Of a DNA stretch of 64,000 nt, positions 16,451-63,736 are shown piece by piece. How positions within the stretch are numbered: the first letter of the stretch is position 1; every line of letters begins with the position of its first letter. Below the pieces are notes generated by a model. That model was not told the DNA's origin, searched no databases, and saw nothing but the letters and a program-made list of their open reading frames with translations. The position numbers were made by a program, and so were the translations under genes. The DNA is taken from NCBI RefSeq assembly GCF_003324185.1, contig NZ_PXUP01000001.1, positions 124,001-188,000 on the forward strand, in the 5' to 3' direction. Source of the DNA: Faecalibacterium prausnitzii. GTDB taxonomy: Bacteria > Bacillota > Clostridia > Oscillospirales > Ruminococcaceae.

Positions 16451-16464
16451 GGTTTGGGAAGAGA

Positions 16465-16543
16465 ACCCTCTCAGTCACGCCTGACGGCGTGCCAGCTCCC
16501 CCCTCGGGGAAGCTGGCATCGCGCAGCGATGACTGAGGGGGTG
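16465..16543. repeat. Short CCCTCTCAGTC-type terminal-inverted-repeat element
   Basis: ACCCTCTCAGTCA and TGACTGAGGGGGT bound a 79-bp palindromic element with an inner GCCAGCTCCCC...GGGGAAGCTGGC arm pair. It is a short relative of the elements at 33445, 35456, 49638 and 63544. The stretch 16544-16606 shows nothing else. Confidence 0.7.
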
Positions 16544-16606
16544 CCTGCCTCAGTCATCTTATTTTTGTTTTTCTGCACAAAATGTTCTGCGGGCAGGGTT
16601 TTCCTC

Positions 16607-28549: not shown

Positions 28550-29323
28550 TTACCCCAGCTTTTTCTTCTGCTGGCGCGCCACGATGGGCATCAGCAGGGG
28601 GATGGGTACAAGGCGCTGGGCGCTGGTGCACAGCCGCATAAAGGCAGAGGGCACGATGATGGTCTTGCGGTGCATCATGCCCAGCAGAGCTTCCTCCACG
28701 CACAGCTCCGGGGTAATGCCCCGCAGGGCAAACACCACCCCGGCGTGGTCGTTGAACTCGGTATCCACCGGGCCGGGGCAGAGGGCGCAGACATAGACCG
28801 GGCTGTGCATCTCCCGCAGCTCCTCAGCCACGCCGCGGGTCATGCTGACCACATAGGCCTTGCTGGCGTAGTAGCCCGCCATATAAGGCCCGCCGGGCAG
28901 AAGCCCCGCAGAGGACGCCACATTCAGGATGGTGCCGCCGCCCTGTGCGTTCATCTTGCGCACCACGGCGCGGAACAGCCGCGCCATAGCGGCTACGTTC
29001 ACTTGGATCATCTCTTCTTCGCGGGCTTCCTCCGTTTCCAGAATGCTGCCGCAGACGCCGAAACCGGCGTTGTTGATAAAGATGTCGATGTGCTCGTCCG
29101 CCAGCACCTCGCACAGGCGGCTGCACTCCTCGGCGCGGGAGAGGTCGGCAGTCTCGATGCGGCATTCCGTGCCATGGGCTGCGTGCAGCTCCTCGGCGAG
29201 AGCCTGCAAACGGTCGGCGCGGCGGGCGGTCAGGATGAGCCGGCAGCCCATGGCGGCGTACCGGCGGGCGAACTCCCGGCCGATGCCGGAACTTGCGCCG
29301 GTGATCCAGATGGTCTTTTGCAT
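28550..29323 (-). CDS. Short-chain dehydrogenase (SDR)
   Basis: This 257-residue SDR has the cofactor motif IWITGASSGIGREFARRYAA, NNAGFG, Ser in NVASSAGLLPG and the catalytic YYASKAY. It resembles DltE/YqjQ-type oxidoreductases with unknown substrate; a Lys-rich C-terminus (RQQKKKLG) is present. GGAGAACC precedes the ATG at 29323. It lies downstream of trpS behind a strong terminator, so it is probably a separate unit. Confidence 0.85.
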   Translation of the reverse strand: MQKTIWITGASSGIGREFARRYAAMGCRLILTARRADRLQALAEELHAAHGTECRIETADLSRAEECSRLCEVLADEHIDIFINNAGFGVCGSILETEEAREEEMIQVNVAAMARLFRAVVRKMNAQGGGTILNVASSAGLLPGGPYMAGYYASKAYVVSMTRGVAEELREMHSPVYVCALCPGPVDTEFNDHAGVVFALRGITPELCVEEALLGMMHRKTIIVPSAFMRLCTSAQRLVPIPLLMPIVARQQKKKLG

Positions 29324-29434
29324 GGTGGTTCTCCTTTTTCTTCTCGCCCCCAGAACGGGGCTTTCTGTACCTGTTGCCGCTATTTTAGCATAGTTTGACC
29401 GCATTTTCTATGCAATTTTCGTAAACGATGCAAA

Positions 29435-29472
29435 AGAGAGCCCGAAACGCCGCAGGCGTTTCGGGCTCTCTC
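29435..29472 (-). terminator. Terminator after trpS
   Basis: GAGAGCCCGAAACGCC pairs perfectly with GGCGTTTCGGGCTCTC around a three-base loop; TTTT follows on the minus strand. Confidence 0.9.
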
Positions 29473-29479
29473 ATAAATT

Positions 29480-30541
29480 TTACTTCAGCAGGTTATCGTT
29501 CTCGAAATAGTCGATGCGCATGGCCTTGCGCACCTCGTCCAGTGTGGCGGCAGCGGTCTTTTCGGCGTAGGCGCTGCCCTCCTTGAGGATCTCCACCACC
29601 TCGGGCAGGCGCTGCTCCCACTCCTTGCGGCGGGTGCGGATGGGCTCCAGCTCAGCCTGCATGACGCTGTTCAGGAACTTTTTCACCTTCATATCACCAA
29701 GACCGCCGCGCTGATAGTGCGCCTTGACCTCGTCCAGATTCTGGTACTCCGGCCAGAACTCGGCAAAGTGCTCCGGGCGGCAGAAGGCGTCCAGATAGAT
29801 GAACACCGGGTTGCCCTCCACCTTGCCGGGGTCCTGCACGCGCAGGTGGTTGGGATCGGTAAACATGGACTTGACCTTCTTCTCGATCTCCTCCGGCTCC
29901 TCGGACAGGTAGATGCAGTTGCCAAGGCTCTTGCTCATCTTGGCCTTGCCGTCAATGCCGGGCAGACGCAGGCAGGCGGCGTTCTGGGGCAGAACGATCT
30001 GGGGCTCTACCAGCGTCTCGCCGTAGACGGAGTTGAACTTGTGCACGATCTCGCAGCACTGCTCGATCATGGGCTTCTGATCCTCACCGGCGGGCACGGT
30101 GGTAGCCTTGAAAGCGGTGATATCGGCTGCCTGACTGATGGGGTAGCAGAAGAAGCCCACCGGGATGCTGGCTTCGAAGTTGCGCATCTGGATCTCGCTC
30201 TTCACGGTGGGGTTGCGCTGCAAACGGCTGACGGTGACCAGATTCTGGTAGTAGAAGCTCAGCTCGGTCAGCTGGGGCACCATGGACTGGATAAAGATGT
30301 GCACCTTGTTGGGGTCCAGACCGCAGGCCAGATAGTCCAGCGCCACCTGCAGAATGTTCTGGCGCACCTTCTCCGGGTTGTCGGCGTTATCGGTCAGCGC
30401 CTGCGCGTCGGCGATCATGATAAAGATCTCGTCGTACTCGCCGGTATTCTGCAGCCGCACCCGCTCCTTCAAAGAGCCGACATAGTGGCCAACGTGCAGG
30501 CGGCCGGTGGGACGGTCGCCGGTCAGAATAACTTTTTTCAT
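29480..30541 (-). CDS. trpS: Tryptophanyl-tRNA synthetase
   Basis: This 353-residue class I synthetase charges tRNA-Trp. It shows the HIGH-like motif TGRLHVGHYVGSL, the Trp-pocket region PISQAADITAFKA, and KMSKS in GKAKMSKSLGN. It is slightly longer than the 330-residue norm. AAAAGGAGAA precedes the ATG. No T-box motif was found in the 200 bases upstream, in contrast to thrS. Confidence 0.96.
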   Translation of the reverse strand: MKKVILTGDRPTGRLHVGHYVGSLKERVRLQNTGEYDEIFIMIADAQALTDNADNPEKVRQNILQVALDYLACGLDPNKVHIFIQSMVPQLTELSFYYQNLVTVSRLQRNPTVKSEIQMRNFEASIPVGFFCYPISQAADITAFKATTVPAGEDQKPMIEQCCEIVHKFNSVYGETLVEPQIVLPQNAACLRLPGIDGKAKMSKSLGNCIYLSEEPEEIEKKVKSMFTDPNHLRVQDPGKVEGNPVFIYLDAFCRPEHFAEFWPEYQNLDEVKAHYQRGGLGDMKVKKFLNSVMQAELEPIRTRRKEWEQRLPEVVEILKEGSAYAEKTAAATLDEVRKAMRIDYFENDNLLK

Positions 30542-30565
30542 GATGTTCTCCTTTTGACAGGAAAC

Positions 30566-30645
30566 TCCCTCAGTCTGCTCACCTTGTTCGCAGCCAGCTC
30601 CCTCGGGGAGGGAGCCTTTGGCAGTACGGCAAGGCGTCTGACCCT
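30566..30645. repeat. Fragment of the CCCTC-type intergenic element
   Basis: CTCCCTCAGTCTGCTCACC followed by CAGCTCCCTCGGGGAGGGAG is related to the elements at 16465 and 49638. It lies between the tRNA terminator and trpS. Confidence 0.55.
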
Positions 30646-30735
30646 GCCGGAAGGAGTTTTTTCCGTTTTCTTTATTATAATGCTAAGTATAGCCCCCCGG
30701 GGCGGTGCTGTCAACAAGGCCGCCGGGAAAAAGAA

Positions 30736-30763
30736 AAAAGCGATGGAAATTTTCCATCGCTTT
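30736..30763 (-). terminator. Terminator of the tRNA operon
   Basis: On the minus strand AAAGCGATGG pairs with CCATCGCTTT, followed by TTTCTTTTT. Confidence 0.85.
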
Positions 30764-30765
30764 GC

Positions 30766-30842
30766 TGGCGCCTCTTGCCTGACTCGAACAGGCGACACCC
30801 TGATTAACAGTCAGGTGCTCTAACCGACTGAGCTAAAGAGGC
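30766..30842 (-). tRNA. tRNA-Asn (GTT)
   Basis: The minus strand folds into a full cloverleaf: acceptor GCCTCTT/AAGAGGC, D-arm AGCTCAGTCGGTTAGAGC, anticodon loop CTGTTAA, T-loop GTTCGAGTC. The CCA end is encoded (30766-30768). It is the second tRNA of a two-gene unit. Confidence 0.96.
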
Positions 30843-30883
30843 ATCTATATAAAACGGCGCGTGGCCGTTTTACTACTATAAAA

Positions 30884-30958
30884 TGGTGACCCGTACCGGA
30901 ATCGAACCGATGTTAAAGGCGTGAGAGGCCTCTGTCTTAACCGCTTGACCAACGGGCC
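30884..30958 (-). tRNA. tRNA-Glu (CTC)
   Basis: The minus strand folds as a cloverleaf: acceptor GGCCCGT/ACGGGTC, anticodon stem GAGGC/GCCTT with loop CTCTCAC (anticodon CTC), T-loop GTTCGATTC. CCA is encoded (30884-30886). A CTC isoacceptor complements the GAG-rich codon use of the genes here. Confidence 0.94.
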
Positions 30959-31000
30959 ATACGTCCATTTTCGCATCAGGTGTTCGCACCCGACTTGGCT

Positions 31001-31029
31001 ATTTTAGCATACCGAGTGCCCTTTGTCAA
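31001..31029 (-). promoter_or_regulatory. Promoter of the tRNA operon
   Basis: On the minus strand TTGACA (31024-31029) and TAAAAT (31001-31006) have a 17-base spacer, 43 bases upstream of tRNA-Glu. Confidence 0.85.
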
Positions 31030-31167
31030 CAGCAAATTTTGATTTTGTTTGAAAAAAGTAAATTTTTCCACCGCAGCCCCGGACCGGCAGCAAACACCGC
31101 GCCCACTGCCGTTCTATGCTGCCTTTTATAAAGGAACGATAAAATGGTGAAACCTGAATTCGGATAG

Positions 31168-31195
31168 TTGACAACGTGGTAAAATGTGGTACTCT
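31168..31195 (+). promoter_or_regulatory. Possible promoter of the twin-arginine lipoprotein genes
   Basis: TTGACA (31168-31173) is followed after 16 bases by TACTCT (31190-31195), a poor -10. Nothing else was recognised in 31030-31167. Confidence 0.4.
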
Positions 31196-31231
31196 TAGGG
31201 TGCAAAAATGCTTTTGAGGAGGGCTTATAAT

Positions 31232-31756
31232 ATGGCTATGAAAATAGATCGTCGTGCGTTTTTAAAGACTTCTGCCGCAATGGCAGTGGCAGTATCTATG
31301 ACCGGGCTGCTGGGCGGCTGCAGTGATGGTGATGGCAGCACCGATCTGGGTGGTTTTACGGTTGCTGTGGGTAAATGGAGCGCTGTCCCTCATGATCAGG
31401 GCATAGGTACCGGGAAATCCTGGTATGCAGATTTCGCAGTGACTGTGCGCGTTCATAATCTGGATGATTCCAATGGCTTCAGTTTCCCCGCAAAATCCGT
31501 GTTTGTGCTTAAGATCGACGGTCAGAAAGTCGCGCTGCAGGGTGGAGATCTGCTGAGCAATATCACGCTGGTCATGAAAAAGGGCGAGCGCAAAACGGGC
31601 ATTCTGACCTTCCGTCTGGATGAGAGCCAGAAAAATCTCTATCAGGCAATGGAAGCTCAAACCGCAGATATCAAGCTTAGGGTTGGCGTTGATCCCACCG
31701 AGACCTATACCGGTGTTTATGAAGGCTATATTAAGAAGGATTCCAAACTTGCATAA
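31232..31756 (+). CDS. Twin-arginine-type lipoprotein, function unknown (copy 1)
   Basis: This 174-residue protein has an N-terminal MKIDRRAFLKTSAAMAVAVS leader with a twin-arginine pattern (RRAFLK) and a lipobox (LLGGC). The mature domain is about 135 residues, probably a beta-sandwich (WYADFAVTVRVHNLDDSNGF, VFVLKIDGQKVALQG). AGGAGGG 8 bases upstream supports the ATG at 31232. It is followed after 37 bases by a related protein and then by pstS. A substrate-binding or surface role is possible but not shown. Confidence 0.7.
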   Translation: MAMKIDRRAFLKTSAAMAVAVSMTGLLGGCSDGDGSTDLGGFTVAVGKWSAVPHDQGIGTGKSWYADFAVTVRVHNLDDSNGFSFPAKSVFVLKIDGQKVALQGGDLLSNITLVMKKGERKTGILTFRLDESQKNLYQAMEAQTADIKLRVGVDPTETYTGVYEGYIKKDSKLA

Positions 31757-31793
31757 TTGAACCCAAACAGCCCAATACAGGAGGTGCATTGCT

Positions 31794-32297
31794 ATGATCG
31801 ACCGCAGAACATTTCTCAAGCTCAGCGCCGGGGCACTGGTGCTGACCGCCGCAGGGACTTTGACCGGCTGCGGGGATACCGTGATCGAAAAGACCAGCGG
31901 TGTGGCGAAGATCGGTGATGTCACCTTTATCTGCGCAATGCCGTTTCCGGGCGGCGGCTTGGGCGACGGCATAGTCAAGCAGCTGACCTACTTGACGCAG
32001 TTCACCATCCAGAACAACAGCGCCGAAAGGGTAGTTATCAAGCCGGAGGACATTACCTGCATCTTCCAGGAGGCGGACACCAAGGAAACGCTGTATTTCA
32101 AGCGGAAGGAACTGGTCGCAGAGCCGGGGCAGACGGCCGTCTACAATGGCTCGCAGGAGTTCTATCTGGAAACTAAGGAAGGTGTGCCGGAAAAGAACAG
32201 CACCGGCACTTATGAACTGCGTGTGCGCTACAATGGTCAAACCGCTGTATTCCTCTATGGAAATAACGGCAAAAATGTAACGGGCCGCGTAGAGTAA
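31794..32297 (+). CDS. Twin-arginine-type lipoprotein, function unknown (copy 2)
   Basis: This 167-residue protein has the leader MIDRRTFLKLSAGALVLTAA with lipobox TLTGC. The mature part (about 140 residues) resembles its upstream neighbour in size and predicted beta structure (TQFTIQNNSAERVVIKPEDI, GTYELRVRYNGQTAVFLYG), suggesting an old tandem duplication. CAGGAGGTG precedes the ATG. A terminator follows, so the two genes form one unit. I cannot name a family. Confidence 0.7.
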   Translation: MIDRRTFLKLSAGALVLTAAGTLTGCGDTVIEKTSGVAKIGDVTFICAMPFPGGGLGDGIVKQLTYLTQFTIQNNSAERVVIKPEDITCIFQEADTKETLYFKRKELVAEPGQTAVYNGSQEFYLETKEGVPEKNSTGTYELRVRYNGQTAVFLYGNNGKNVTGRVE

Positions 32298-32312
32298 AAC
32301 CGAATACATCCC

Positions 32313-32360
32313 GCCGCCGGGCACTTCTGGAAACAGGAGTGTCCGGCGGCTTTTTGTTTT
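32313..32360 (+). terminator. Rho-independent terminator
   Basis: GCCGCCGG and CACT pair with AGTG and CCGGCGGC, followed by TTTTTGTTTT. Confidence 0.85.
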
Positions 32361-32458
32361 GTGCCGCATTACCTGTTCTTTACATTGGGGCTGGCATTGT
32401 GCACAAAGTTTTACGCACTTTTTGCACGTCCATGGTCGCAGCAAGGGCGGCAAAGCGG

Positions 32459-32464
32459 TAGAAT
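32459..32464 (+). promoter_or_regulatory. Possible -10 box of pstS
   Basis: TAGAAT lies 75 bases upstream of pstS. No clear -35 is seen, which fits an activator-dependent (PhoB/PhoP-type) promoter, but I could not identify a Pho box with confidence. Confidence 0.3.
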
Positions 32465-32539
32465 AAGGCCGTTCCCAAGGAAAACACAAAAAGACAGTGC
32501 CGGGCGGGAGCCCGGGTTTTTAATGGAGGAAATTCTATC

Positions 32540-33433
32540 ATGAAAAAGATCTCTCGTCGTTCGTTTCTGACCGTTTGCGGTGCAGCTGCTGCGGCTGCTG
32601 CCCTGACCGCCTGCGGCGGCTCTGCTTCTTCCGCATCCAGCACCGCTGCTTCTGCTTCCGCCACCGCTTCTTCCGCTGCCGGGCAGGCAGCCGGCACCCT
32701 GAGCGGCAACGTTGCGACCGGCGGTTCTACTTCCATGAAGAACGTCATCGCTGCCCTGACCGAGGGCTTTGCCGAGGTCGAGCCGGGTGTCACCGTCAGC
32801 TACGACCCCACCGGCTCCGGCGCAGGCATCACCGGCGCTACCGACAAGACGCTGGACATCGGCCTGTCCTCCCGCGCCCTGAAGGACGATGAGAAGAACG
32901 ATGTGGACGGCACTGTCGTGGCGCTGGACGGCATCGCCATCATCGTGAACAAGGACAGCAAGGTCGCTGACCTGACTGTGGAGCAGCTCAAGAAGATGTT
33001 CACCGGCGAGATCACCAACTGGAAGGAGGTCGGCGGCGATGACGGCGAGATCGTTCTGGTGGGTCGCGAGGCCGGTTCCGGCACCCGCGATGGCTTTGAG
33101 AGCATCGTGGACGTGAAGGACAGCTGCAAGTACGCACAGGAGCTGACCGCCACCGGCGCTGTCATCAGCGCCGTGGAGGCAAACCCGCTGGCCATCGGCT
33201 ACGCTTCTCTGTCCGCTGTGGGCGACACCGTTGCCATGGTCACCGTGGAAGGTGTGGAGTGCAGCGAGGACACCGTCAAGGACGGCACTTACAAAATCCA
33301 GCGTCCCTTCGTGTTCGTCACCAACAAGAGCGCTGCCCTGTCTGAGCAGGCACAGGCCTTTGTGGACTTTGCCACCAGCAAGGACGCTGCCGACCTCATC
33401 CGCACCGCAGGCGCTGTGCCCGTGAACGAGTAA
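32540..33433 (+). CDS. pstS: Phosphate-binding lipoprotein of the Pst ABC transporter
   Basis: PstS captures phosphate outside the cell. The 297-residue protein has a lipoprotein leader (SRRSFLTVCGAAAAAAALTA, lipobox LTAC), again with a twin-arginine pattern, then a Ser/Ala-rich tether. The binding domain shows GGSTSMKNVIAALTEGFAE, YDPTGSGAGI, DIGLSSRALK and GREAGSGTRDGFE, the canonical phosphate-contact loops. TGGAGGAAA precedes the ATG. pstC follows after a 145-bp repeat element rather than a short gap. Confidence 0.96.
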   Translation: MKKISRRSFLTVCGAAAAAAALTACGGSASSASSTAASASATASSAAGQAAGTLSGNVATGGSTSMKNVIAALTEGFAEVEPGVTVSYDPTGSGAGITGATDKTLDIGLSSRALKDDEKNDVDGTVVALDGIAIIVNKDSKVADLTVEQLKKMFTGEITNWKEVGGDDGEIVLVGREAGSGTRDGFESIVDVKDSCKYAQELTATGAVISAVEANPLAIGYASLSAVGDTVAMVTVEGVECSEDTVKDGTYKIQRPFVFVTNKSAALSEQAQAFVDFATSKDAADLIRTAGAVPVNE

Positions 33434-33444
33434 CGGTTAGCGGG

Positions 33445-33589
33445 CTCGCCCTCTCCGTCATTGCTTGCGCAATGCCACCTCTCCCAAAGTGAGAGGCCTT
33501 GGCAGTCCATGCAAAGTCTCCGGTTTCGCCAGAGGCTCTCCCTTTGGGAGAGCTGTCGAGACACGAAGTGCCGAGACTGAGAGGGCGAG
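33445..33589. repeat. 145-bp terminal-inverted-repeat element, copy upstream of pstC
   Basis: CTCGCCCTCTC at the left end and GAGAGGGCGAG at the right end are perfect inverted repeats. Inside are arms CTCTCCCAAAG and CTTTGGGAGAG. The reverse complement of this element recurs at 35456-35600 with about four differences. Confidence 0.9.
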
Positions 33590-33665
33590 GCCGTTCACAA
33601 AATACCCCGCCGCGTCGGCCTGCCCTAAAAGGCTGGGCTGGTGCGGCTTTTTATAGGATCACGTT

Positions 33666-34580
33666 ATGAAAAATACAACCTCTTCTCTGCGCCGGGTGCG
33701 GCTGCCCCGCACCCCCGCCGACTGGCTGGAAGCGGTGATGAATTTCATCTTCTTCCTGTGCGGAATGCTGGCGGTGTGCTGTGTGGTGCTCATCTCGGTG
33801 TACATGGTGGTCTCCGGCGTGCCGGCTATCCATAAGATCGGCATTTTCAAATTTCTCTTCGGCACAAAATGGGCGTCTACCGCGGCAGAGCCGCTGTTCG
33901 GCATTCTGCCCTTTATCCTGTCCAGCATCTACGGCACGCTGGGCGCTACCATCCTCGGCGTGCCCATCGGCCTGCTGACGGCAGTGTTCCTCTCCAAGGC
34001 CGCAGACCCCAAGCTGCGCACCGTGGTGGTCACCGCCATCGAGCTGCTGTCCGGCATCCCCAGCGTGGTGTTCGGCCTTTTGGGTATGCAGGTGCTGGTG
34101 CCCGCCGTGGCAAAAGCTTTCGGCAAGGCTTCCGGTGCCTGCCTGCTCAGCGCCATCGTGGTGCTTTCCATCATGATCCTGCCCAGCATCGTGTCCGTGT
34201 CGGTGACGGCGCTCAACGCCGTGCCGCCGGAGTATGAGCAGGGCAGTCTGGCGCTGGGCGCTACCGACACCGAAACATGGTTCAAGATCAGCATCCCGGC
34301 GGCGAAAAGCGGCATTGCCGCAGGCGTTGTGCTGGGCATCGGCCGCGCCATCGGCGAAGCCATGGCCGTGATGATGGTGGCGGGCAACAGCCCCAATATG
34401 CCGGACAGCCTGTTCCGCAGCGTCACTTTGCTGACCACCGCCATCGCCAAGGAAATGAGCTACGCCGGCGGCTTGCAGCGGCAGGCACTGTTCAGCATCG
34501 CGCTGGTGCTGTTCGTGTTCATCATGCTCATCAACGTTGTGCTGAATGTGGTATTGAAGGGAGGAAACCGCGATGAATAA
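33666..34580 (+). CDS. pstC: Phosphate ABC transporter permease PstC
   Basis: PstC is one of two membrane subunits of the high-affinity phosphate importer. The 304-residue protein has six helices, a large first outer loop and the permease EAA-loop (ALGATDTETWFKISIPAAKS, GIGRAIGEAMAVMMVAG). The ATG at 33666 follows a weak ribosome binding site just after the repeat element. The gene overlaps pstA by 8 bases. Confidence 0.95.
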   Translation: MKNTTSSLRRVRLPRTPADWLEAVMNFIFFLCGMLAVCCVVLISVYMVVSGVPAIHKIGIFKFLFGTKWASTAAEPLFGILPFILSSIYGTLGATILGVPIGLLTAVFLSKAADPKLRTVVVTAIELLSGIPSVVFGLLGMQVLVPAVAKAFGKASGACLLSAIVVLSIMILPSIVSVSVTALNAVPPEYEQGSLALGATDTETWFKISIPAAKSGIAAGVVLGIGRAIGEAMAVMMVAGNSPNMPDSLFRSVTLLTTAIAKEMSYAGGLQRQALFSIALVLFVFIMLINVVLNVVLKGGNRDE

Positions 34581-35430
34581 CGGCTTTTCGCCCTCCCGCC
34601 GGGCATGGAACCGGGTAATGACCGTGCTGGTCTGGGCCAGCGCAGTGCTGGTGATGGTGCTGGTGGCCGGGATCATCGGCATGGTGCTGGTGCGGGGCAT
34701 CCCCCACATCAGCTGGAAATTCCTTTCCACCACCGCCAGTGTGCTGAAAAAGACCGACGGCATTCTGCCCGCCATCCTCAACACCCTGTATGTCATCCTG
34801 CTGACATTACTCATCGTATTGCCGCTGGGCGTGGGTGCGGCGGTCTACCTGACCGAATACGCTTCCAACCGGCGGCTCATCGAGATCATCGAGTTCACCA
34901 ACGAAACGCTGGCGGGTATCCCCAGCATCATCTACGGCTTGGTGGGTATGCTGGTGTTCAGTCAGGCGCTGGGCTTCCAGACCTGTCTTTTGTCCGGCAG
35001 TCTGACGCTGGTGGTGATGAACCTGCCCACCATCATCCGCACCACGCAGGAATCCCTCAAAACGGTGCCGCAGGGCTACCGTGAGGGTGCTATGGGTCTG
35101 GGTGCGGGCAAGTGGCACATCATCCGCACCATCGTGCTGCCCTGCAGCATCGATGGCGTCGTCACCGGCTGCATTCTGGCGGTAGGACGCATCGTGGGCG
35201 AAAGCGCTGCGCTGCTGTTCACCGCCGGTGCGGCAGAGGTGATCGCCAAGAGTGTGTTCAAGGCCTACACCTCCAACGGCGCTACCCTGTCGGTGCTGCT
35301 GTATCTGCGCGCCTTTGAGGACGGCGATTTCACCTCCGCATGGGGCATCGGCGCAGTGCTGCTGGTGCTGGTGCTGCTGATCAATCTGGCAGCACGTCTG
35401 GCGAAAACCAAACTGAAACAGAAGCAGTAA
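34573..35430 (+). CDS. pstA: Phosphate ABC transporter permease PstA
   Basis: PstA pairs with PstC. The 285-residue protein has six helices, VLPLGVGAAVYLTEYASNRR, GIPSIIYGLVGMLVF and the EAA-loop AMGLGAGKWHIIRTIVLPCS followed by GRIVGESAALLFTAGA. AAGGGAGGA lies within the end of pstC. pstB follows after an inverted copy of the repeat element. Confidence 0.95.
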   Translation: MNNGFSPSRRAWNRVMTVLVWASAVLVMVLVAGIIGMVLVRGIPHISWKFLSTTASVLKKTDGILPAILNTLYVILLTLLIVLPLGVGAAVYLTEYASNRRLIEIIEFTNETLAGIPSIIYGLVGMLVFSQALGFQTCLLSGSLTLVVMNLPTIIRTTQESLKTVPQGYREGAMGLGAGKWHIIRTIVLPCSIDGVVTGCILAVGRIVGESAALLFTAGAAEVIAKSVFKAYTSNGATLSVLLYLRAFEDGDFTSAWGIGAVLLVLVLLINLAARLAKTKLKQKQ

Positions 35431-35455
35431 AAGATTGCAGATATTTGATAGCGGC

Positions 35456-35600
35456 CTCGCCCTCTCAGTCTCGGCACTTCGTGTCTCGACAGCTCTCCCA
35501 AAGGGAGAGCCTCTGGCGAAACCGAAAGCTTCGCATGGACTGCCAAGGCCTCTCACTTTGGGAGAGGTGGCATTGCGCAAGCAATGACGGAGAGGGCGAG
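35456..35600. repeat. 145-bp element, inverted copy downstream of pstA
   Basis: It is the reverse complement of 33445-33589, with about four mismatches near GAAACCG[A/G]. The two copies face each other across pstC-pstA. Confidence 0.9.
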
Positions 35601-35644
35601 GATGCTGAAAAAACGCGATCGTCCTATAAAATATGAGGTACTCT

Positions 35645-36412
35645 ATGGAAAACACGAATGTGCCGGTGATATCGGCAAAGGATCTGAACCTCTGGTACGG
35701 CGACTTCAAGGCGCTGAAGAGCATTTCGCTGGACGTGGGCGAGCGGGAGATCACCGCACTCATCGGCCCCTCCGGCTGCGGCAAATCCACCTTTTTAAAG
35801 ACCCTGAACCGCATGAACGACCTTGTGCCGGGCGTGCGCATCGAGGGCGATGTGCGGCTGAAGGGCGAGGATATCTTTGCCCGCAAGATGGAACTGACCG
35901 ACCTGCGCCGCCGCGTGGGCATGGTGTTCCAGAAGGCGAACCCCTTCCCCATGAGCATCTACGACAACATCACTTACGGCCCCAAGCTGCACGGCGTGCG
36001 CAATAAGGCCGAGCTGGACGAGCTGGTGGAGACCTCGCTGCGGGGCGCAGCCCTGTGGGACGAGGTGAAGGATCGCCTGAAAAAGAGCGCCCTTGGCCTT
36101 TCCGGCGGGCAGCAGCAGCGTCTTTGCATCGCCCGCGCATTGGCGGTCAAGCCCGAGGTGCTGCTGATGGACGAGCCCACCAGCGCACTGGACCCCGGCT
36201 CTACCATGAAGGTGGAAGAGCTGATGAGCGAGCTGAAAAAGAACTACACCGTGGTCATCGTCACCCACAATATGCAGCAGGCTGCCCGCATCAGCGACCG
36301 CACCGCCTTCTTCCTGCTGGGGGAGCTGGTGGAAGTGGGCCCCACGAACCAGATCTTCAGCACACCCCGGGACAAGCGCACCGAGGACTACATCTCCGGC
36401 CGGTTCGGTTAA
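35645..36412 (+). CDS. pstB: Phosphate ABC transporter ATPase
   Basis: PstB powers phosphate import. The 255-residue protein has Walker A ([19 protein letters not shown]), Q-loop ([15 protein letters not shown]), the signature [17 protein letters not shown] and Walker B with DEPTSALDP, plus the H-loop in [13 protein letters not shown]. The start at 35645 has TGAGGT upstream and gives the usual N-terminus. phoU follows after 19 bases. Confidence 0.97.
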
Positions 36413-36431
36413 TGCAGGGAGGAACAAAGCA

Positions 36432-37100
36432 ATGAGCATTCGCAAACAATACGACAGCGATCTGGAAGCCCTCAAGACCGCACTGGTGGAGATGGGGCAG
36501 AACGCCGCCGAGGCCGTGGAGAACGCGCTGGAAGCGCTGTGCACCGCCGACACCGCAGCCGCCCAGAAGATCGTGCAGGGGGATGACCGCATCAACAACA
36601 TGGAGCGGGACATCGAGCACCGCTGCATGACCTTGCTGCTGCGCCAGCAGCCGGTGGCGGGCGATCTGCGCCACATTTCCACCGCCATGAAGGTGGTCAC
36701 CGATATCGAGCGCATGGGCGACCACGCCTCGGATATCGCCGAGATCATCCCGCATCTTGTCACCGTGCGCAAGGAGGGCGACCCCGCTGTCAGTCAGGCC
36801 ATTGCCATGGGGCGTAAGGCCTACCAGATGATCTTAGACGCCATGGACGCCCTGACCGCCGAGGATGAGATCGCCGCCCGCCGCGTCATCGCCGCAGACG
36901 ACGCCGTGGACTACGACTTCAACGCCATCAAGCACACGCTGGCACAGGAGATCGCCGCCGACCCCGCCAAGGTGGACGCCGCGCTGGATCTTTTGATGGT
37001 CATCAAGTATCTGGAGCGCATCGGCGACCACGCCGTGAACGTAGCCGAGTGGGTGCAGTTCGTGCGCACCGGGCGCTACAAGGACGAAAGCATGTTCTGA
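36432..37100 (+). CDS. phoU: Phosphate transport regulator PhoU
   Basis: PhoU damps Pst activity and Pho signalling. The 222-residue protein has two PhoU three-helix repeats, each with its metal-binding pattern (VVTDIERMGDHASDIAE and VIKYLERIGDHAVNVAEWV). GGGAGGAAC precedes the ATG. It closes the pst operon. Confidence 0.95.
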   Translation: MSIRKQYDSDLEALKTALVEMGQNAAEAVENALEALCTADTAAAQKIVQGDDRINNMERDIEHRCMTLLLRQQPVAGDLRHISTAMKVVTDIERMGDHASDIAEIIPHLVTVRKEGDPAVSQAIAMGRKAYQMILDAMDALTAEDEIAARRVIAADDAVDYDFNAIKHTLAQEIAADPAKVDAALDLLMVIKYLERIGDHAVNVAEWVQFVRTGRYKDESMF

Positions 37101-37146
37101 TACTCACTCTGCCCTTTTGGGCGCGTGTTTTCCTTATTTTCTTCTG

Positions 37147-37183
37147 GAAAAGGCTGTCTGCCGTTTGGCGGGCAGCCTTTTTC
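37147..37183 (+). terminator. Terminator of the pst operon
   Basis: AAAAGGCTG and CTGCC pair with GGCGGGCAGCCTTTTT, ending in a T-run. Confidence 0.82.
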
Positions 37184-37367
37184 TGTGGGAAAGCTCCCTC
37201 TACAACGAAAATTGACTAAAAAATTTTTATCTTTTCTGCAATGTTTGCGGCGGGTGATTCGTATTCAGGGTATAAGAGCCCGGAAGGGGCTCCGCAGTTA
37301 TCGTGCGGCGGGTGGTCCGGCTTCCCCCAGTCCCCCGCCTGCCGCACCGTTACGGAGGACAGATACA

Positions 37368-37766
37368 ATGATGGCAAAGCTTGAACGCTCCCCGCAGCAA
37401 GCCCGCATGGAGGCCGTGAGCCGCGATGCACTGGTGCAGGCGGCGCTGCAGGAGATCACCCAAAATTATCGTGAGGCCAGCCTTTCCAATGTGGCAAGGG
37501 CTTATGGTGTTTCGCTGGCGTATGTCAGCGAGTGCGTGCGCGCCCAGACTGGGCGCACCTACAAGGAGCTGCTGCAAAAGCACCGCATGGAGACCGCCGC
37601 GCGGCTGCTGCGCCGCAGCGATCTGAACATTCAGCAGATCATTGCACAGGTGGGCTACGAGAACACCAGCTACTTCTACCGCCTGTTCCACGAGCGCTAC
37701 GGCCTGAGTCCACGGGAGTACCGGCTGGTGCGCACCGGCACTGCTTCCCGCCGCCCCACCGCATGA
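37368..37766 (+). CDS. Stand-alone AraC-type HTH regulator
   Basis: This 132-residue protein consists of little more than the two AraC helix-turn-helix motifs (LSNVARAYGVSLAYVSECVR; LNIQQIIAQVGYENTSYFYR followed by LFHERYGLSPREYR). It lacks a ligand-sensing domain, so activity may be set by expression or a partner. ACGGAGGAC precedes the first of two consecutive ATGs. The 160-base leader has a GC-rich inverted repeat (GTGCGGC...GCCGCAC, 37302-37348). Targets are unknown. Confidence 0.82.
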   Translation: MMAKLERSPQQARMEAVSRDALVQAALQEITQNYREASLSNVARAYGVSLAYVSECVRAQTGRTYKELLQKHRMETAARLLRRSDLNIQQIIAQVGYENTSYFYRLFHERYGLSPREYRLVRTGTASRRPTA

Positions 37767-37932
37767 AGCCCTCTTTTGATTTGCTGCCCCGACCGTCGTG
37801 CTGCTGCCCCGCGCACGGCGGTCTGTTTTTGCCGCGAAATGGAGAAAAATCTGGTACTTTATGGAATATTGTGTTATACTAAAATAAATGTACCCCGCGC
37901 GGCAGGGCGCGGGCAAGAGAGGATGAGTGGAT

Positions 37933-38439
37933 ATGTTTCGCGGAGCGGTAAGAGCAGATATGGCACGGATTTTGGATATCTATGCCCGTGCGCGGGAATT
38001 CATGGCGAAAAACGGCAACCCCACCCAGTGGGGGGACAATTACCCAAGCCCGGAGCTGCTGGAAGAGGATATCGACACCAACCGGCTGTTCGTGTACATG
38101 GTGAACGGCCAGATGCAGGCGGTGTTTGCCTTTGTCCTTGGCGAGGACCCCACTTACAAGGTCATTGAGGACGGGCAGTGGCTCAACGACACTTTGCCCT
38201 ACGGTACGCTGCACCGGCTGGCTTCGGCGGGCGAGAGCAAGGGCATCGGCAAGGCGGTGGTGGAGTGGTGTCTGGAGCACTGCGAGAGCCTGCGCGCCGA
38301 CACCCACGCCGACAACAAGGTGATGCAGCACCTGCTGGAAAGCGAGGGCTTTACCCGCTGCGGCATCATCCATGTGGAGGACGGCACCCCGCGCATCGCC
38401 TACCAGCGGTTGTCCCTGACCCAGAGCCAGCTGGGGTGA
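37933..38439 (+). CDS. GNAT-family N-acetyltransferase
   Basis: This 168-residue acetyltransferase has the acetyl-CoA region in LHRLASAGESKGIGKAVVEW, a variant of the Q/RxxGxG/A loop, followed by RADTHADNKVMQHLLESEGF. The substrate is unknown. The ATG at 37933 is preferred over a GTG two codons earlier because AGAGGATG is then 9 bases upstream. It has its own promoter region and a terminator. Confidence 0.85.
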   Translation: MFRGAVRADMARILDIYARAREFMAKNGNPTQWGDNYPSPELLEEDIDTNRLFVYMVNGQMQAVFAFVLGEDPTYKVIEDGQWLNDTLPYGTLHRLASAGESKGIGKAVVEWCLEHCESLRADTHADNKVMQHLLESEGFTRCGIIHVEDGTPRIAYQRLSLTQSQLG

Positions 38440-38460
38440 GCGGAAAAACAGTTTGATTTG

Positions 38461-38501
38461 GGAGATCGGAAATGCCTGCGGGCGTTTCCGATCTCCTTTT
38501 T
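38461..38501 (+). terminator. Rho-independent terminator
   Basis: GGAGATCGGAAA pairs with TTTCCGATCTCC, followed by TTTTT. Confidence 0.88.
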
Positions 38502-38526
38502 CATAGATGGAGCTGCCCTGCCGCGC

Positions 38527-38634
38527 CCTCTCCCGTGAAAATGCAATGCCGGAGCGTCCGCAGACGCTCCGGCATTGCGCTATTAAAAAAGAACTTTTCC
38601 GCTGAATATGCGCAAAGCGCACGCGGCGCGCATT
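38527..38634. ncRNA. Three-copy structured intergenic element, copy A
   Basis: The element starts CTCTCCCGTGAAAAT. It contains a 16-bp perfect hairpin with loop CGCA (38543-38578). It ends in TTTTCCGCTGAATATGCGC... where CCGC pairs with GCGG and ATGCGC with GCGCAT in an interleaved order. Copies B (43356) and C (61568) have different helix sequences but the same pairing. Transcription and the sense strand are unknown; it could also be a DNA-level repeat. Confidence 0.6.
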
Positions 38635-38661
38635 TCTGATCCTCTCCCCCCCTTCTGTGCC

Positions 38662-38690
38662 TTGCCACCGGCGGCGAAGCAGTGTATAAT
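38662..38690 (+). promoter_or_regulatory. Promoter of the nucleotidyltransferase gene
   Basis: TTGCCA (38662-38667) and a perfect TATAAT (38685-38690) have a 17-base spacer. Confidence 0.8.
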
Positions 38691-38744
38691 AGCCTCAGAA
38701 CGCTACAATGCCGGAAACCCCGGCAGATACAGGAGGAATTGCAG

Positions 38745-39665
38745 ATGAATAAACCGGTACTGGTCGTCATGGCTGCCGGCATGGGCAGCCGTTACGGCGG
38801 CATGAAGCAGATCGACCCGGTGGGCCCCAACGGACAGGTCATTATGGACTATTCCCTTTACGACGCCCGCCGCGCCGGCTTTGAGACCGTGATCTTTGTC
38901 ATCAAGCACGAGATCGAGGACGCCTTCAAGGCAGCCATCGGCGACCGTGTGGCCAAGGCGATGAAGGTGAAGTATGCCTTCCAGCAGCTGGAAGAGCTGC
39001 CCGCAGGCTTTGCCGTGCCGGAGGGACGTGTAAAGCCCTGGGGCACCTGCCATGCCGTGCTGGCTGCAAAGCCCCTGATTGACGGCCCCTTTGCGGTCAT
39101 CAATGCGGACGACTACTACGGCCCGGAGGCGTTTCAGGTGATGTACGATTACCTGTCCACCCACGCCGATGATGATTTCTACCGCTACTGCATGGTCAGC
39201 TATCTGCTGAAGAACACCCTGTCCGAGAACGGCAGCGTGGCACGCGGCGTGTGCATCAAGAACGAGGACGGCACCCTGCAAAGCGTGACCGAGCGCACCC
39301 GCATCGAGCCCTGCGACGGCGGCGCACATTACACCGAGGACGGCGGCGAGAGTTGGGTGGACCTGCCCGGCGACACCCCTGTGAGCATGAACCTGTGGGG
39401 CTTCGGCAAGAGCTTTCTGGACGAGGCCGAGCAGCGCTTTGCAGGCTGGCTGACCGAGAATCTGCCGGTGAACCCCCTGAAGTGCGAGTATTTCCTGCCG
39501 CTGGTGGTGACCGAGCTGATCGAGGAGAACAAGGCAAAAATTCAGGTGCTGCGCAGCACGGATAAGTGGTTCGGCGTCACCTACCGGGAGGATAAGCCTT
39601 TGGTGGTGGAGGCCATTGCCCGCAAGACCGCCGAGGGCCAGTACCCCGAAAAACTGTGGGAGTAA
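38745..39665 (+). CDS. Sugar nucleotidyltransferase-like protein
   Basis: This 306-residue protein has the nucleotidyltransferase N-terminus (VLVVMAAGMGSRYGGMKQID), the base/sugar-phosphate contact GTCHAVLAAKPLIDGPFAVI and the metal site NADDYYGPEAF. It resembles the single-domain NTP transferases often found in gut Firmicutes; the exact sugar phosphate is not evident. A long insertion around residues 140-210 (TEDGGESWVDLPGD) precedes the MNLWGF strand. CAGGAGGAAT precedes the ATG. It is a single-gene unit. Confidence 0.85.
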   Translation: MNKPVLVVMAAGMGSRYGGMKQIDPVGPNGQVIMDYSLYDARRAGFETVIFVIKHEIEDAFKAAIGDRVAKAMKVKYAFQQLEELPAGFAVPEGRVKPWGTCHAVLAAKPLIDGPFAVINADDYYGPEAFQVMYDYLSTHADDDFYRYCMVSYLLKNTLSENGSVARGVCIKNEDGTLQSVTERTRIEPCDGGAHYTEDGGESWVDLPGDTPVSMNLWGFGKSFLDEAEQRFAGWLTENLPVNPLKCEYFLPLVVTELIEENKAKIQVLRSTDKWFGVTYREDKPLVVEAIARKTAEGQYPEKLWE

Positions 39666-39700
39666 ATGCTTCGAAATAGCGGAAAAATATTTAGATCATA

Positions 39701-39742
39701 GCAAAGTCGGGCAGCCTGCGGGCTGCCCGACTTTGTGTTTTT
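39701..39742 (+). terminator. Rho-independent terminator
   Basis: CAAAGTCGGGCAGCC pairs with GGCTGCCCGACTTTG around TGCG, followed by TGTTTTT. Confidence 0.92.
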
Positions 39743-39758
39743 ATGGGGTGGAACGTAT

Positions 39759-40199
39759 TCACAAAAACCGTTCCAGCTGGATGCGGTTATCCTCTTCAAA
39801 ATCCTGCAGCCGCTGGGCAAGGCGCTTTGCGCCCGGGGCGGCGTTGGGGTAGTCCTTGCAGCTTTTTACGCAGTCCACCACCCCCATGCCGCTGCCCTGT
39901 GTGAGCATTTCGGCCAGATTGCGGGTGGATTTGTCCGTAAGGGTCTTGAGCCCGATACCCATTTTCGTGTTCAGCTTTGCCATGGTGCTCTGCCCCTGCG
40001 CGCTGCCGCCGCAGGCTTCTATGGCGGTGTGCGCCTCCTGATTCAGCTGGTGATAAATATTGCGCTGGCGCAGCAGTTCGGCCTTGAACTGCACATCGCT
40101 GGTCATGGGTAAGATCTGCTCCAAGGTGTTCTTACCCATCTCGGTGTTCTGCACCACCGCCTCCAGCAGGTTGAGGTTATCGTTTTTCTGGTTTTCCAT
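39759..40199 (-). CDS. Small all-helical protein, ferritin-like/DUF2383-like
   Basis: This 146-residue protein (MENQKNDNLNLLEAVVQNTE...) is predicted to be four helices (AELLRQRNIYHQLNQEAHTA, MAKLNTKMGIGLKTL, RNLAEMLTQGSGMGVVDCVK). The helix lengths and NxxLNL start recall ferritin-like stress proteins, but the metal-binding Glu/His pattern is not convincing. Its Shine-Dalgarno (AAAGGGGG) lies inside the 3' arm of the hairpin at 40205-40248. Function is unknown. Confidence 0.6.
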   Translation of the reverse strand: MENQKNDNLNLLEAVVQNTEMGKNTLEQILPMTSDVQFKAELLRQRNIYHQLNQEAHTAIEACGGSAQGQSTMAKLNTKMGIGLKTLTDKSTRNLAEMLTQGSGMGVVDCVKSCKDYPNAAPGAKRLAQRLQDFEEDNRIQLERFL

Positions 40200-49637: not shown

Positions 49638-49799
49638 TGCGCCCTCTCAGGCGCTCCCGCGCCAGCTCCCCCGAAGGGGGAGCCAAGCCATCACGTTCGT
49701 TGCTAAAGTATTAGGTGAAATGAGAAAGCTTCCGGCAGTGCTCTTGGCTCTCCCTTTGGGAGAGCTGGCAAAGCCGTAGGCTTTGACTGAGAGGGCGCA
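49638..49799. repeat. 162-bp terminal-inverted-repeat element
   Basis: TGCGCCCTCTCAG and CTGAGAGGGCGCA are perfect terminal inverted repeats. Inside are CAGCTCCCC...GGGGGAG and GGCTCTCCCTTTGGGAGAG arms like those of the 145-bp elements, but the middle differs. Confidence 0.85.
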
Positions 49800-59346: not shown

Positions 59347-59362
59347 CTCCGCCGATTTGAAT

Positions 59363-59412
59363 CCCCTCAGTCGCTGCGCGACAGCTCCCCCAAGGGGGAG
59401 CGGGCACACCCA
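59363..59412. repeat. CCCCTCAGTCGCTGCGCGACAG element fragment
   Basis: CCCCTCAGTCGCTGCGCGAC followed by AGCTCCCCCAAGGGGGAGC. The first 20 bases are identical to 43202-43221. Confidence 0.65.
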
Positions 59413-63543: not shown

Positions 63544-63736
63544 CTCGCCCTCTCAGGCAAAGCCTGTCGGCTTTGCCAGATTCCCCCTTTTGTCGCTGCG
63601 CGACATCTTCCCCCGGCGCGGGGGAAGTCTTTCCTCAAAGGGAGAGCCTTTGGCAGTCCACGCAAACTTCATCTCCTTGCCAAGGCCTCTCCCTTTGGGA
63701 GAGGTGGATTTGCGAAGCAAAGACGGAGAGGGCGAG
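63544..63736. repeat. 193-bp composite terminal-inverted-repeat element
   Basis: It has the same CTCGCCCTCTC / GAGAGGGCGAG ends as the pst copies. Its interior is a mosaic: the right half resembles 35456-35600 and the left half the TCGCTGCGCGACATCTTCCC module of 43199-43290. Confidence 0.85.

Follow-up and report, generated by a model that had tools for sequence, protein, structure and literature searches.

Two inverted palindromic elements in the pst operon of Faecalibacterium prausnitzii are members of a dispersed repeat family

The two near-identical elements that face each other across pstC and pstA in Faecalibacterium prausnitzii, here termed E1 and E2, are ordinary members of a dispersed family of REPIN- or MITE-like palindromic repeats. 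We analyzed them in a window of 64,000 nucleotides (the whole stretch of DNA under study) and in other Faecalibacterium genomes, designated by G numbers. With a probability of roughly 70%, we favor the reading that E1 and E2 are resident copies of a non-coding family that spreads and is maintained at the level of DNA, that they arrived in the operon separately, and that they do not form a switch.

The pst elements and their repeat family

A repeat search placed the inverted pair first among the repeats of the window, with arms at 33445-33601 and 35444-35600 (157 nt, 96% complementary). Gapped alignment narrowed these arms to 145-nt cores that are identical at 141 of 145 positions, with all four differences in the central spacer, in keeping with the original prediction of two facing copies of about 145 bp that differ at about four positions; 1,866 nt (~1.87 kb) lie between them. 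The 11-bp terminal inverted repeats proposed at the same time, CTCGCCCTCTC, are perfect in both elements, and in other copies of the family the terminal repeat appeared by eye to extend outward in degenerate form, approximately as TTAGCNNNCTCGCCCTCTC. Five gene calls above the NCBIfam cut-offs confirmed that the elements split pstS from pstCA and pstCA from pstB (Table 1). Two adjoining lipoprotein-like reading frames were noted by eye upstream of pstS (31208-31756 and 31794-32297), the second of which had no NCBIfam match at 1e-10.

Table 1. Features of the pst operon and its elements, in window coordinates
Feature	Position	Strand	Basis
pstS	32540..33433	+	TIGR02136 above cut-off
E1, 145-nt palindromic element in the pstS/pstC gap, CCGTC half first	33445..33589	+	Repeat search and alignment; 145/145 identical at the same site in G030
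E1 half-unit, type C (CCGTC ... CCACCTC)	33446..33496	+	Model R1, 65 bits
E1 half-unit, type A (CAGTC ... GCTC)	33535..33588	-	Model R1, 47.4 bits
Hairpin resembling an intrinsic terminator, with TTTTT after it, in the interval from E1 to pstC	within 33593..33665	+	Fold of -27.7 kcal/mol
pstC	33666..34580	+	TIGR02138 above cut-off
pstA	34573..35430	+	TIGR00974 above cut-off
E2 left flank, common to G027	35431..35455	+	Sequence comparison
E2, 145-nt element in the pstA/pstB gap, inverted	35456..35600	-	Repeat search and alignment; same site and flanks in G027
E2 half-unit, type A	35457..35510	+	Model R1, 47.4 bits
E2 half-unit, type C	35549..35599	-	Model R1, 65 bits
E2 right flank, common to G027 (one difference)	35601..35627	+	Sequence comparison
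pstB	35645..36412	+	TIGR00972 above cut-off
phoU	36432..37100	+	TIGR02135 above cut-off

A full copy consists of two half-units of ~51 nt, arranged head to head around a spacer. Each half-unit runs from a pyrimidine end (CCCTCTC, ACCTCTC or CTCCCTC) through a tag (CCGTC or CAGTC), a variable hairpin and a CCA to a second hairpin. Among 92 half-units, the base preceding GTC in the tag is either C (40) or A (52), and in 89 of them it tracks the second hairpin, C occurring with CCTC and A with GCTC. Terminal stems comprise 5-6 contiguous Watson-Crick pairs in 37 of 53 distinct loops and are shorter in the other 16. The CCA tail is present in the half-units, but CCA was built into the search pattern, which makes this observation circular. 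Head-to-head dimers predominate: among the best 150 of 178 half-units, 98 formed 49 such pairs less than 200 nt apart, alongside four same-strand pairs and one outward-facing pair.

Searching its own genome with E1 returned 25 matching rows at E ≤ 0.001, a count that takes in E1 itself and readings of both strands and indicates that the element recurs far beyond chance; matches were also found in 19 of 31 Faecalibacterium genomes. With 150 of 1814 candidates scored, model R1 identified no fewer than 90 half-units in the own genome; in 1.235 Mb from 14 Faecalibacterium genomes it found 178 (E ≤ 0.01). Under stricter filters, its matches extended to 30 of 148 genomes, representing 28 of 123 genera of the bacterial family. 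The pattern used for covariation analysis matched 92 times, against once in reversed sequence.

Several further features of the family were recorded. Model R1 located additional members within the window at 16463-16544, 30562-30615, 49639-49798, 59359-59401 and 63545-63735, the last of which contains a nested hairpin module of ~50 nt. By eye, the second hairpin of copies from several subfamilies encloses a nested module (AAAGACTTCCCCCGG...CCGGGGGAAG together with a small hairpin), which looks as if it were itself mobile (the L049 pstA/pstB gap, G028 269976, G009 18966, G012 46540, G030 152455 and G015 249810). Copies with ACCTCTC/CTCCCTC ends are, again by eye, bracketed by the two arms of a stem that resembles a terminator (for example GGGCTGTTGC...GCAACAGCCC, then a T run), as if inserted into its loop or carrying the stem with them (G002 219992 and 266338, G013 13875, G008 117719 and G030 174538). 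Contig C13 of the own genome (287 kb, 9.5% of the genome) holds 31 of the at least 90 half-units (binomial P = 8.7e-11, with 150 of 1814 candidates scored).

No plasmid match for the element was obtained among 72,556 plasmid records, and plasmid carriage was therefore rejected. E1 matches 34 records named 'Bacteriophage sp.' (for example MT835756.1, 17039-17189); the 20 phage matches listed are unannotated and derive from human faeces, the one record inspected is marked UNVERIFIED, and phage carriage is uncertain. Assignment to an Rfam family was likewise rejected, as the window contains only two tRNAs at gathering score; the best sub-threshold match over an element was whalefall-1, at 14.7 bits against a threshold of 37.

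REPINs, which are associated with RAYT transposases, consist of two palindromic units in inverted orientation and are dispersed in many copies. The present family shares this layout and dispersal. Unlike REPINs, it carries CGTC/AGTC tags, with GTAG absent from both elements and from the 10 nt on each side of them, and, unlike the REPIN/RAYT pairing, it occurs in a genus in which Y1_Tnp is absent from 20 of 31 genomes. A likeness also exists to the CGTC-tagged REPs, for which the portions of the description drawn on here give a CGTC tag, a hairpin, a CCA tail, predominantly head-to-head dimers and no known dedicated transposase (PMC3733652). The family differs from these in its mixed tags (40 CGTC and 52 AGTC among 92 half-units), its extra second hairpin, its pyrimidine ends and its stem length, which is 8-9 bp in CGTC-REPs and mostly 5-6 bp here. 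Firmicutes, Clostridia and Faecalibacterium are not mentioned in the main text of that article (Di Nocera et al. 2013). Correia/NEMIS, RUP, ERIC and CIR elements, as summarized in part of PMC2229807, are ~100-170 nt long, palindromic and largely intergenic; Correia elements come in a short and a long form, set apart by an internal piece of 50 bp, and CIR consists of two arms joined by a linker. As described, these elements are like our family in size, palindromic form and intergenic placement; our family is unlike them in that no TA duplication was found in 35 elements and the terminal hairpins are widely variable.

The family is apparently undescribed. No description of it in Faecalibacterium was found among the literature matches listed, whose coverage leaves out most subscription journals, and the table of RepRanger (PMC12306157) includes three Bacillota species, Faecalibacterium not among them. 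The family may be one of the 250 palindromic candidates reported in the consulted part of a microbiome structured-RNA survey (PMC8040213).

Separate histories of E1 and E2

A PstA search yielded 18 loci, 16 of them from Faecalibacterium and the other two distant partial matches at 50%. It had been proposed that E1 and E2 could support inversion of pstCA and that comparing the operon between strains with and without the elements would bear on this. The comparison did reveal that each element is absent from some relatives, but not the proposed inversion: pstS, pstC, pstA, pstB and phoU kept the same order and orientation in 14 of 14 genomes, and only the window's genome carried both elements.

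E1 occurs without E2 in G030, at the same site and identical over all 145 nt, where the right flank is common to both genomes and the left flank is not; the coding blocks adjoining it are 95.5% and 88.4% identical to the window (4.5% and 11.6% differences). E2 occurs without E1 in G027, at the same site and with the same flanks; there, 54 nt (the nested module) replace 4 nt, the other 141 nt are identical, and the adjoining coding blocks are 86.4% and 92.7% identical (13.6% and 7.3% differences). Across the 214-nt window gap, only four mismatches to G027 were counted, two at the replacement junction and two in the flanks. Block by block, the pst genes of the window are 93-99.5% identical to those of G009, G029 and G017, all of which lack both elements.

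Because E1 and E2 are each present alone elsewhere, the pair is neither a joint switch nor a composite mobile unit. At the four diagnostic central bases, E1 in G030 and E2 in G027 each read as in the window, so there is no sign of recombination between them. Near-identical inverted repeats 1.87 kb apart could serve RecA-type inversion, yet a switch in which they flip pstC-pstA is highly improbable, though a rare inversion may occur, given the separate occurrences, the preserved diagnostic bases, the lack of an inverted pstCA among 14 genomes of which one carries both elements, and the fact that no recombinase was noticed by eye among the reading frames of window positions 29000-40000. The opposite orientation of E1 and E2 around pstCA would also suit a composite unit, with both copies moving together and carrying the two genes, but each element occurs at its own site without the other, and the pstCA of the window is closest to G009, G029 and G017 rather than to the element-sharing genomes. 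These two observations contradict the composite unit and leave its probability next to nil.

The chance of finding no difference in 145 nt is 5.6e-6 at 8% divergence and 2.3e-7 at 10%. Relative to coding divergence, gaps with elements in both genomes deviated by a mean of +0.004 (35 comparisons), against -0.021 for gaps without elements (160); on the former value, we rejected a slow pace of change common to element gaps as the source of the identity of E1 and E2. Unchanged elements amid diverged coding blocks thus make short-tract exchange between species the better reading, in preference to special constraint. The lineage of the window would then have acquired E1 and E2 separately, on short tracts common to two other species.

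The pstS/pstC gap of G009, G029 and G017 (L045-L047) holds a different palindromic insert of ~80-90 nt, which by eye has opposite orientations in the close relatives G029 and G017.

Hairpin pairing and mobility

We assessed pairing in the terminal hairpins using a pattern without a stem requirement. All five outer pairs were formed, with G-T allowed, in 39 of 50 distinct loops, after exclusion of 3 of 53 for a length below 12 nt; 200 shuffles of the arms reached this in 4.5 loops on average and in 11 at most. In alignment A1, comprising 43 of 45 distinct-loop half-units that fell within length limits and had been chosen from 69, 91.6% of cells were paired, compared with 55.1% after shuffling and 29-38% after sliding; 75 cells had changed on both sides, compared with 22 in shuffles, and none on one side. 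Only the terminal hairpin provides an unbiased test in this alignment, since selection of the half-units required pairing of the second hairpin.

A second alignment, A2, held 150 model-aligned matches and was fitted to the structure, with related and hence non-independent rows. Its terminal helix displayed 199 double-change cells and 2 G-T among 556 paired cells; a further 68 cells were unpaired. In the second hairpin, one-sided change affected 21 cells, and a single position accounts for 17 of these. As a control, tRNA acceptor stems from the genus had 16 G-U in 226, with 19 further cells unpaired, which raises the possibility of a wrong register in some control stems. In an initial control, comprising 10 tRNAs, 1 of 68 was G-U. 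The loop G-T counts themselves shift with register, to 3 of 254 or 13 of 256.

Variation of the terminal hairpins is thus nearly confined to Watson-Crick pairs, which fits upkeep of a DNA palindrome better than selection on RNA. We regard this as moderate evidence that the pairing is maintained at the DNA level; the pattern would also fit RNA selection with fast compensation. Template switching can introduce compensatory changes in a single step, according to the relevant part of PMC8794818. Copies of the family may spread and be refreshed in DNA by way of hairpin or cruciform DNA and template switching, and conversion between copies may swap their interiors while the site stays. Orthologous copies provide examples suggestive of the replacement of modules: G030 184461 and G009 13052 have both boundaries in common and different interiors, and G030 186909 and G012 46538 have a common left boundary and different interiors. 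Tentatively, hairpins and spacers could be swapped as whole DNA modules, by conversion or template switching, in copies long resident at their operon gaps, with element-sized tracts crossing species into the corresponding gap without the neighboring genes, a possibility that we consider doubtful.

Presence and absence between close genomes were clear, although many empty sites were not clean. One filled/empty pair displayed a 5-bp TAAGG duplication. No fixed-length target duplication emerged from 35 elements, the set left after removing duplicates and elements shorter than 105 nt, whose partner end was misidentified; words of 3-6 occurred at chance level. The best 2-mer duplication, in 11 of the 35 and reached in 2% of shuffles, falls within the CTCG...CGAG ends, which explain it. 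The same elements gave no support to a TA target duplication that had been suspected by eye.

These data bear on whether the family is a classic MITE, in which the DDE transposase of an intact element recognizes the ends and generates a target duplication. The terminal inverted repeats, size and dispersion of the copies agree with this, as does the TAAGG pair, and RUP in pneumococcus is a precedent (PMC2229807, in the part consulted). Set against them, the lack of a constant-length duplication and the unclean empty sites make a classic MITE unlikely, as does the finding that no transposase and no transposase-bearing relative was recognized by eye between inward-facing half-units (best 150 of 178, in 1.24 Mb).

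Y1_Tnp genes (PF01797) were detected in 11 of the 31 genus genomes, and genomes that lack them (G028, G017, G003, G014, G008, G013 and G015) contain 28-52 E1 matches each. Mobilization by RAYT was rejected as a general explanation on these grounds. The own genome has three Y1_Tnp matches, which may be of the RAYT or the IS200 kind.

Occupied gaps and the pst mRNA

Using a simple codon-usage gene caller, we found a BLAST match to the family in 101 of 1051 called gaps (at least one of the 101 being a different repeat), distributed over 61 of 780 tandem, 22 of 136 convergent and 18 of 135 divergent gaps; 10 of 98 half-units lay inside called genes. About half of the gaps comparable in at least eight genomes were occupied in none of them (5/10, 8/15, 9/19 and 8/16, according to the reference genome). 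Occupancy is uneven, with the pstA/pstB gap at 7 of 13 and another gap at 7 of 10; the automated pst count includes G012, which by eye has an unrelated repeat, and leaves out G028, in which pstB is split. By hand, members were assigned to the pstA/pstB gap in 7 of 14 genomes (the window's, G030, G028, G027, G014, G003 and G002). They represent several subfamilies, and those of G030 have another arrangement and are not E2. In 6 of the 14, including the three nearest the window (G009, G029 and G017), this gap measures 10-40 nt. Since a second gap is equally hot, pst is a hot gap and not the sole one; the gaps of a histidine-biosynthesis gene run (genes named by eye from translations) behave alike. 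Copies would lodge mainly where insertion is cheapest, in intergenic DNA that includes tight operon gaps.

Two observations concern G028. At 321337 (L075), an element takes the place of an 11-nt spacer that precedes the next gene in G027, and its GAGAGGG end occupies the expected position of the ribosome-binding site. The G028 pstB frame (L048) is split in two, by a frameshift or a sequence error.

At the RNA level, each element could fold in the mRNA as had been proposed, with predicted energies of -72.5 and -78.2 kcal/mol for the two alone. Pairing of E1 with E2, envisaged over 145 bases, was recovered in the minimum-free-energy fold of 33431-35660 at a predicted -319 kcal/mol, with a length of 141 bp. 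This pairing is predicted for equilibrium and would face competition from local hairpins and from the terminator-like hairpin that precedes pstC. That hairpin is not listed by a simple terminator scan; its stem is bulged, which may be why. Similar hairpins were seen by eye in the pstS/pstC gaps of G030, G009, G029, G017, G028, G027 and G012, of which G030 alone has E1. E1 and E2 themselves do not resemble intrinsic terminators, as no T run was seen by eye at their ends and the scan lists no terminator there. The predicted unpaired probability of the pstB ribosome-binding region was 0.45 with E2 and 0.39 in the empty allele, and that of the pstC region was 0.58 with and without E1.

The predicted 141-bp equilibrium pairing leaves room for an effect of RNase III on the mRNA, and the E1:E2 duplex might be a substrate of this enzyme by analogy with NEMIS. 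In one account, the stem-loops or the duplex would set the PstS/PstCA/PstB ratio, through RNase III cutting or a block to exonucleases, and occupancy of the pstA/pstB gap would be selected. The choice of the duplex in the fold of the 2.2-kb stretch is consistent with such a role, as are the occupation of this gap in half of the genomes by several subfamilies, against 61 of 780 tandem gaps, and the proposal, in the part of PMC2229807 drawn on here, that NEMIS/Correia transcripts are RNase III substrates. We nevertheless consider this account distinctly unlikely, because another gap is just as hot, about half of the comparable gaps are unoccupied, the pstA/pstB gap is short in 6 of 14 genomes, the terminal hairpins vary nearly without G-T cells, and predicted ribosome-site accessibility is hardly altered. 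The hairpin before pstC, co-transcriptional local folding and the fact that the nearest relatives have empty gaps also argue against an essential role. As resident copies of a DNA-level family, E1 and E2 would act in pst mRNA as structured spacers that may attract RNase III, and not as a switch.

For the pst operon alone, the finding is ordinary. Its wider interest lies in a family that fills a noticeable share of the gaps (101 of 1051 by BLAST) in a major human gut commensal. It bears on the means by which palindromes become dispersed when no transposase is evident, and on whether strong intergenic covariation in bacteria always denotes a functional RNA, and such a family could yield false structured-RNA families in automated RNA discovery. 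If module swapping is true, the family would be a natural system for the making and keeping of palindromes without selection on RNA.
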